A DNA stretch of 64,000 nucleotides from Terriglobia bacterium (GTDB lineage: Bacteria > Acidobacteriota > Terriglobia > Terriglobales > Acidobacteriaceae). The stretch lies in the NCBI GenBank assembly GCA_020073495.1, contig JAIQFD010000001.1, positions 310,001-374,000 of the forward strand, written 5' to 3'. Position numbers and translations under genes: made by a program. Of the stretch, positions 7,618 through 9,501 are shown in pieces. Below the pieces are notes generated by a model. That model saw nothing but the letters and a program-made list of their open reading frames with translations, searched no databases and was not told the DNA's origin. Positions within the stretch are counted from its first letter, which is position 1; every line of letters starts with the position of its first letter.

Positions 7618-8376
7618 ATGAGCCGGACAGCGAATATAGCGGTCGTTGGCGATTACAAAGCCGACAATCGCACGCATGTGGCCACGACCAATGCATTGCG
7701 TCATGCGGCGCGCGTGGTCGGGGCCGCGCTCGACTTGCAATGGGTGCATACGTCGCGGGTGAAAGCCGACAACCCTGGCGGGACACTCGACGAGTTCGAC
7801 GGCCTGTTCCTGGCGCCGGGAAGCCCTTACGCGAACTTCGAAGGAGCGCTGGCGGCGGTGCGCTTTGCCCGCGAGCAGGGCCGCGCCTTCGCCGCCACTT
7901 GAGGCGGCTTCCAACATACTCTGTTGGAGTATGCAAGGAACGTGATGGGGATTGCTGACGCGGATTCAGAAGAGCATGGCACGGGGTCGAAGAATCTGAT
8001 GGTGACCGCGTGCTCGCTGCCGCAACGGCAGCCGGGCGCCGCGTACGTCGACCGGCAGGAGCCGATACAGTTGAAGCCCGGATCGCAAGCGGCTCGGGTA
8101 TTTGGTCTCGAGGCAAGGACGGAGGAGTACCTCTGCAACTACGAGTTCAACCGCGAATACCAGGAGCAGGTGGACGCCGCCGGCCTTAAGGTGGTCGGAT
8201 TCGACGATCGCGGAGTGGGTCGCGTGGTCGAGCTGCCGGAGCACCGCTTCTTCATCGCGACGCTGTTCCTGCCGCAGTTGAAGTCGAGCGACGCGCGTCC
8301 GCATCCGTACCTGGTGGCTTTCATTGAGGCCGCGAGCCACGGCAAGCCGAAGAATTTGGGCGCAAGAATCGGATAG
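7618..8376 (+). CDS. CTP-synthase-like class I glutamine amidotransferase with in-frame TGA at the catalytic cysteine (candidate selenoprotein)
   Basis: Two open frames in the same phase are separated by one TGA at 7900-7902. Read through, they give one 252-residue protein that aligns end to end with the CTP-synthase-like glutamine amidotransferases: [15 protein letters not shown], then [16 protein letters not shown], then [22 protein letters not shown], then [15 protein letters not shown] and [11 protein letters not shown]. The TGA (codon 95) falls where relatives have the nucleophilic Cys of T-C-G-G-F-Q-H. A stem-loop starts 12 nt after the TGA (7915-7933). The start is ATG 7618, with GGAGGGG 8 bp upstream. 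Alternatives are a recent nonsense mutation or a base-call error (TGC to TGA). The rest of the frame is intact, which favours a working gene. Confidence 0.7.
7915..7933 (+). promoter_or_regulatory. SECIS-like stem-loop downstream of the in-frame TGA
   Basis: CATACTC (7915-7921) pairs perfectly with GAGTATG (7927-7933) around the loop TGTTG. Nineteen nucleotides separate the TGA from the loop, and G is the second loop base. Both agree with the bacterial SECIS model as I know it (loop about 16-37 nt after UGA, a G in the first two loop positions). The codons here (CAT ACT CTG TTG GAG TAT GCA) are unusually AT-rich for this gene, as expected if RNA structure constrains them. A competing 6-bp stem, CCAACA/TGTTGG, overlaps it. 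Confidence 0.5.
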
Positions 8377-8409: not shown

Positions 8410-9501
8410 ATGGCGAATGCTACAGTGATGCCCGATTTCCAGATGCTCCTCATCGCCGACGACGATCCACGGTGGGCCGCAGTCCTGGCGCGCGACGCGT
8501 CGCAGGACGGCAGCTTCTTTTATGCCGTGCGCTCGACCGGAGTTTATTGCCGGCCGTCGTGCCCGTCGCGGCGCCCTCGGCGGGAAAACGTCCAGTTCTA
8601 CCGCACGCCGGAGCAGGCGGAGCGCGCCGGTTTCCGCCCGTGCTTGCGCTGCCAACCTCTGGCGGTACGCACCGGCGACACGCGCGTCGAGTTCGTCGAA
8701 CGGGTCTGCCGCCACATCGAGGAGCACCTCGACGAGCCCCTGCGGCTTAGCAGCCTGGGGCGTGAGTTCGGGATGAGTCCGTTCCATCTGCAGCGGACCT
8801 TCAAGTCCGTGCTCGACATCACGCCGCGCGAATATGCGGAAACCTGCCGCATGAAGTCGCTGAAGAATGGGTTGCAATCCGGGCATTCGGTGACCGAGGC
8901 CATGCACGAGGCGGGCTATGGTTCCACCAGCAGGCTGTACGAGAAGACCGGCGGCCAGCTCGGCATGACGCCGACGCTCTACCGGCTGGGCGCGAACCGC
9001 ATCACCATCCGTTATGCGACGGTCAATTCCCCGCTGGGCCGGATGCTGGTGGCCGCCACTGACAAGGGCATCTGCTCCATCACCTTCGGTGGATCAGAAG
9101 CAGGTCTGGTGAAAGACCTGCGCAAGGAATATCCGCAAGCGCAGTTCAAGAGAGCCGAGGCGGTCCTGCACCGCTGGATCGGGGCCTTGCTCAAGCAGAT
9201 GTTCGGCGAGCCGCAGAAGACCAGGCTGCCGCTGGACATCCAGGCCACAGCGTTCCAGCGTCGCGTGTGGCAGCATCTGCAATCCATCCCCTTCGGCTCG
9301 ACCAAGAGTTACTCAGAAGTGGCCCGCGAGATCGGTGAGCCGAATGCGACCCGCGCGGTGGCGCAGGCCTGCGCGAGAAATCCCGTGGCCATCGCTATCC
9401 CCTGCCATCGCGTGGTGCGCAACGACGGCTCGCTCGGCGGGTACCGCTGGGGCATCGAGAGAAAGAAGCAGTTGCTGGAGCGGGAGGCGGGGCGGGCGTA
9501 G
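8410..9501 (+). CDS. ada: Bifunctional Ada: methyl-responsive regulator / O6-methylguanine-DNA methyltransferase
   Basis: A 363-residue protein with the full Ada layout. The N-terminal Zn domain has the four ligands C47, C51, C78 and C81 (GVYCRPSC ... FRPCLRC), one of which takes a methyl group from phosphotriesters. An AraC-type helix-turn-helix follows (about residues 95-195, SSLGREFGMSPFHLQRTFK). The C-terminal MGMT domain has the active-site PCHRV with acceptor C332. It repairs alkylated DNA and activates the adaptive response. An ATG six codons in is an alternative start. The gap to the gene upstream is 33 bp, so co-transcription is possible. Confidence 0.95.
   Translation: MANATVMPDFQMLLIADDDPRWAAVLARDASQDGSFFYAVRSTGVYCRPSCPSRRPRRENVQFYRTPEQAERAGFRPCLRCQPLAVRTGDTRVEFVERVCRHIEEHLDEPLRLSSLGREFGMSPFHLQRTFKSVLDITPREYAETCRMKSLKNGLQSGHSVTEAMHEAGYGSTSRLYEKTGGQLGMTPTLYRLGANRITIRYATVNSPLGRMLVAATDKGICSITFGGSEAGLVKDLRKEYPQAQFKRAEAVLHRWIGALLKQMFGEPQKTRLPLDIQATAFQRRVWQHLQSIPFGSTKSYSEVAREIGEPNATRAVAQACARNPVAIAIPCHRVVRNDGSLGGYRWGIERKKQLLEREAGRA

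Follow-up and report, generated by a model that had tools for sequence, protein, structure and literature searches.

Class I glutamine amidotransferases have a Cys-His-Glu catalytic triad, and in CTP synthase (PyrG) the amidotransferase forms the C-terminal domain. A selenocysteine (Sec) version of such a protein has been predicted before: the deep-Sep paper of 2025 assigns to Desulfosediminicola ganghwensis a predicted Sec-containing glutamine amidotransferase (COG0504, PyrG), presented there with a predicted SECIS and with homologues elsewhere that carry TGA or Cys (PMC12013277). A 2026 review, in its passages on the family, lists it under NF004836 with the motif GxUxG (PMC13188914), and NCBIfam NF004836 (PRK06186) is itself named CTP synthase C-terminal region-related (seleno)protein. 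A preliminary description of the gene studied here considered Sec in a class I amidotransferase to be new, a claim that these three sources overturn. Our literature search found no paper naming PRK06186, and the 2026 review was the only one containing both "CTP synthase" and "C-terminal region-related". Neither "triad" nor "histidine" occurs in the main text of the 2025 paper, and the loss of the triad His and the two invariant Cys residues described below were not mentioned in the pertinent passages of either publication or in anything returned by the literature search.

The gene lies in a 64,000-nucleotide stretch of DNA from a Terriglobia bacterium (the window), and its features are collected in Table 1. 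Its frame contains a single internal TGA, is open throughout the remainder and ends at TAG, so that the lone interruption of an intact frame noted at the outset is real. When compared with solved structures, the read-through product aligned with the amidotransferase domain of CTP synthases across its entire length, and residue 95 fell in the column of their catalytic Cys, which is the nucleophile position to which the TGA had been assigned.

Table 1. Features of the predicted selenoprotein gene, in coordinates of the window.
Feature	Coordinates	Strand	Observation
Predicted selenoprotein gene, relative of the CTP synthase C-terminal (amidotransferase) domain	7618..8376	+	252 residues, UGA as Sec
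In-frame TGA, residue 95, nucleophile elbow T-U-G-G-F-Q-H	7900..7902	+	TGA in 8 genes including that of the window, Cys codon in 86
bSECIS-like hairpin	7915..7933	+	7-bp stem, UGUUG loop, loop 19 nt after TGA
Cys132	8011..8013	+	94/94 homologues; of 18 CTP synthases, 17 have Glu and 1 has Asp
Cys173	8134..8136	+	94/94 homologues; His in 18/18 CTP synthases
Leu218-Pro219-Gln220, replacing triad His-Pro-Glu	8269..8277	+	Alignment with CTP synthases

The best family match of the window protein was NF004836 (258.2 bits, versus 135.3 bits for CTP synthase). Because this score misses the equivalog cut-off of 260 by only 1.8 bits, the gene is a further member of an already predicted kind of selenoprotein or a very close relative of it; formally, it is a close relative of NF004836 and not a member. 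The four other TGA homologues scored lie on both sides of the cut-off, two under it (257.0 and 258.0 bits) and two over it (282.2 bits and, for L029, 303.3 bits). Homologues over the cut-off share Cys/Sec95, Cys132 and Cys173 with the window protein, and these three positions, which are our own criterion for the family and not NCBI's, were each present in 94 of 94 homologues. The D. ganghwensis protein likewise has Sec in a COG0504-type protein, though it comes from another organism and the likeness is one of description only. With CTP synthase, the window protein shares the fold and homology along the whole C-terminal domain, but it lacks the triad His, has two extra invariant Cys residues and has no N-terminal synthase domain, its 252 residues covering only profile positions 288-529 of 534. 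A separate CTP-synthase-type frame of 597 residues is found elsewhere in the same genome (G000:C1:711192).

The 94 aligned homologues comprised 12 from a phylum survey (including the window gene), 79 from a named-genome search and 3 from a pattern search of the class. Two retrieved entries were duplicates (L134 of the window gene and L136 of the L029 gene), and one further sequence, L123, was excluded from the group counts as a CTP synthase (PF06418, 417 bits; CTP synthase model, 815.5 bits). The alignment yielded the Cys/UGA pairs at residue 95 that the preliminary description had proposed to look for, and the seven further TGA homologues, 40–48% identical to the window protein, have their TGA at the same codon. 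In the phylum, 10 of 396 genomes had a protein passing the NF004836 cut-off, one of which (L029) has TGA, with the window gene falling just under; in the class, 4 of 399 genomes, including that of the window, contained an exact match to a pattern written for a single form of the TGA motif, which other TGA forms escape. Among the best 80 of 216 relatives in the named-genome search, TGA was present in three (L052, L053 and L054, with the titles Bryobacterales, Terriglobia and Acidobacteria). The Cys version occurs in, among others, Klebsiella, Kluyvera, Serratia and Pseudomonas, and the Sec residue flags residue 95 as the reactive position of these proteins as well. The gene of Escherichia sp. 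ESNIH1 had no DNA-level match in Escherichia coli genomes. A plasmid search matched 65 records, all at less than 60% identity, and most of the 30 listed were annotated as CTP synthase or unannotated.

The hairpin proved to be exactly as first reported, with CATACTC (7915-7921) and GAGTATG (7927-7933) forming seven perfect pairs around the loop TGTTG (7922-7926). Bacterial SECIS (bSECIS) rules, as given in the relevant passages of the 2026 review, call for a loop of 3-9 nt, a stem of 4-16 bp, a G in the first two loop positions, a spacing of 16-37 nt and a minimum free energy of at most -7.5 (PMC13188914). The hairpin fits all of them (a 5-nt loop with G at position 2, a 7-bp stem and a spacing of 19 nt), folding with 4-nt flanks at -8.5 kcal/mol, a value equalled or bettered by 7 of 200 shuffles. 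The AT-rich codons remarked upon across the stem are also present, 5 of 8 codons (residues 99-106) ending in A or T in a gene with a GC3 of 0.77. There was no Rfam SECIS match; the lone Rfam match between 7600 and 8400 (E up to 5), isrK at 8016-8103, was rejected at 19 bits versus a gathering score of 50. Taken alone the hairpin is weak evidence, and Sec could not have been established from the window without its homologues. When the window gene was shuffled synonymously, 323 of 20000 trials restored all seven pairs in the exact register (151 to 865 of 20000 across the TGA genes) and 1968 of 5000 gave a stem of at least 8 bp anywhere in the stretch; across the TGA genes, 316 to 1968 of 5000 shuffles produced somewhere in the stretch a stem that equalled or exceeded the observed 8 bp (G-U counted). 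Stems of at least 8 bp (G-U counted) were also present in 9 of the 67 Cys genes examined for stem length, a pattern-selected set that misses 19 Cys rows.

It is the comparison among homologues that lends the hairpin its weight. All eight TGA genes carry CAT(A/G)CTC-TG(T/G)T(G/A)-GAGTATG starting 12 nt after the TGA. Scored by alignment in the same register, a stem of seven pairs (G-U allowed) is complete in 8 of 8 TGA genes versus 1 (L061) of all 86 Cys genes. Codon use follows the same pattern: with the TGA codon, Met and Trp left out, the eight genes share one codon at 5 of 5 amino-acid-invariant positions within residues 99-105 and at 0 of 41 elsewhere (including Ala106, whose first base closes the stem), four of the five fixed codons lying within the hairpin and the fifth, Gln99, just ahead of it. 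Compared pairwise, the eight proteins have identities of 0.37 to 0.56, except for one pair at 0.83, so that recent common descent does not explain this conservation. Base-pair covariation in the eight genes is small, one stem pair changing from A-U to G-U and none being altered on both sides. Being kept across eight diverged homologues, the hairpin is more than a chance structure, and its identification as a bacterial SECIS element with Sec at the nucleophile position is strongly supported. The same eight genes put the computational Sec prediction of 2025 on firmer footing.

The preliminary description had named selA, selB, selC and selD as the genes to look for, and the source genome (3.70 Mb in 8 contigs, listed as 100% complete) contains all four: profile searches returned selA (566 bits), selB (337 bits) and selD (376 bits), each over its cut-off, and a tRNA-Sec (selC) with the UGA-reading anticodon tca was found. 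The tRNA-Sec search gave 14 further, weaker matches besides; a second tRNA-Sec-like match, at C1:218844, is a tRNA-Ser. The selD gene (L010, G000:C4:415672-416595) is itself a predicted selenoprotein gene with an in-frame TGA at the active-site motif AGUASK. Among the genomes behind the aligned genes from the phylum survey and the class pattern search, selA was over the cut-off in 5 of 5 with a TGA gene versus 4 of 10 with a Cys gene.

If the TGA were instead a real stop introduced by a nonsense mutation, as its meaning in translation table 11 would have it, the gene would be a decaying pseudogene or encode a short product. Translation table 11 is the sole point for this reading, and against it stand the full Sec system of the genome, the TGA at the same codon in seven further genes and the conservation of the sequence downstream. 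Decay after the TGA, raised early on as a reason for doubt, was looked for and not found: compared with each of the seven other TGA members, the window protein is 0.32-0.42 identical ahead of the TGA and 0.40-0.53 identical beyond it, L029 being the exception with slightly lower identity after than before. A stop codon or pseudogene was thus rejected on the eight TGA genes and the downstream conservation, and we regard it as extremely improbable. Insertion of another residue at the TGA was set aside because the full Sec system and the Cys homologues already explain it. We thus conclude that the internal UGA is very probably read as selenocysteine.

What the protein does is a separate matter, and here the name glutamine amidotransferase, used in the preliminary description as in the literature, holds for ancestry and fold but probably not for activity. 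Homology to the CTP synthase amidotransferase domain is matched by an AlphaFold model (pLDDT 90.5, pTM 0.89) in which residue 95 sits between a strand and a helix in a nucleophile-elbow-like position, and the 50 listed of 91 PDB matches at E up to 0.001 were all CTP synthases or their glutaminase domains. The triad positions of the window protein, however, read Sec-Leu-Gln and not Cys-His-Glu. At position 218, the 94 homologues have Gln (84), Val (8) or Leu (2) and never His, which is present in 18 of 18 comparison CTP synthases (L034-L051, from the phylum survey, classed by frames of 551-723 residues); at position 220, where most of the group, including most Cys members, retain the triad Glu, the window protein has Gln. 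All 18 CTP synthases have His at positions 171 and 173 and Arg at position 174; the first two are altered throughout the group and the third in most of its members. The excluded CTP synthase L123 has Ser95, Glu132, Asn173, His218 and Glu220. By alignment, then, the group has lost the triad His218 and gained the invariant Cys132 and Cys173, and on these grounds glutaminase activity has probably been lost. "Glutamine amidotransferase" is therefore probably a misnomer, in conflict with the active site of the group; some residual hydrolytic role is conceivable in the Cys members, since most of them keep Glu220.

We propose that the hairpin recruits SelB and tRNA-Sec so that Sec would be inserted at the UGA, giving a 252-residue selenoprotein with the predicted fold of the CTP synthase amidotransferase domain but probably without its glutamine hydrolysis. 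Placed on the nucleophile elbow, Sec95 would then most likely serve as a selenol in a redox or soft-metal/metalloid reaction, resolved by Cys132 and/or Cys173, a role suggested by the three invariant positions and by the usual use of Sec. As a whole we consider this account quite probable, although a specifically redox role for Sec95 stands at about an even chance. Somewhat short of even, and offered tentatively, is the broader proposal of a new type of thiol/selenol enzyme, derived from the amidotransferase fold, in which the glutaminase site has been rebuilt as a three-chalcogen site (Sec95, Cys132 and Cys173) for redox or soft-metal chemistry, with at least three Sec/Cys exchanges.

Two other functions deserve to be weighed against this account. 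A true Sec-dependent glutamine amidotransferase, its Sec nucleophile activated without His and its ammonia passed to a partner, would accord with the full-length homology and fold match to CTP synthase and with the invariance of Glu119, Gly97 and Gln99 in both the homologue group and the CTP synthases; a selenol, moreover, ionises without a general base. Yet the 86 Cys members also lack the His and have no selenol to compensate, the changes at positions 171, 173 and, in most members, 174 speak against it as well, and the neighbours inspected included no recognisable synthase gene, so we judge this function improbable. Somewhat less so, but still unlikely, is a metal or metalloid site in which Sec95, Cys132 and Cys173 bind a soft metal, the purpose being to sense, store or detoxify it and not redox turnover. 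The three invariant thiol/selenol positions and the His at position 100 in many members (69 of 95 rows, L123 included) would suit such a site, but none of the neighbours inspected was recognisable as a metal-resistance gene.

In a phylogenetic tree built from 37 group members together with 6 CTP synthases, a branch with 97/92 support divides the TGA genes into two sets, and the one holding the window gene has 83/82 support (not starred). Within the latter falls a Cys gene, L031, paired with a TGA gene at 100/86. This gene has the Cys codon TGT and lacks the full stem, and its genome (G084) keeps selA; it is possibly a Sec-to-Cys reversion. At least three Sec/Cys changes are required on this tree.

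Clustering of the frames around the 94 genes (25 largest clusters listed) and inspection of 23 loci revealed no neighbour common to the whole group and neither a substrate nor a partner for it, the neighbours differing by lineage. Among the 25 largest clusters, two lineage-bound frames recur, an MFS transporter (40 loci) and a second one (37 loci). A LysR-type frame lies directly upstream on the opposite strand in L066 (whose cluster comprises 11 Pseudomonas loci) and in L055, and a short-chain dehydrogenase and another shared frame lie downstream of the TGA genes L053 and L054. A 2-thiouracil desulfurase of the DUF523 family (L073:2332-2838; Pfam PF04463, 142 bits) belongs to a cluster found close by in 13 loci, the 12 listed being enterobacterial; DUF523 is also a family with predicted Sec in the deep-Sep paper, as described there (PMC12013277). 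One homologue (L033:922-2226) carries a GNAT acetyltransferase domain (54.1 bits) as an N-terminal fusion, which may be a clue to function, and GNAT frames lie near L110. The recurring MFS, LysR-type, short-chain dehydrogenase and 2-thiouracil desulfurase neighbours and the GNAT fusion agree on no function. In the window itself, the gene is followed on the same strand (8410-9501) by an Ada-type protein with Ada metal-binding, AraC-type and methylguanine methyltransferase domains.
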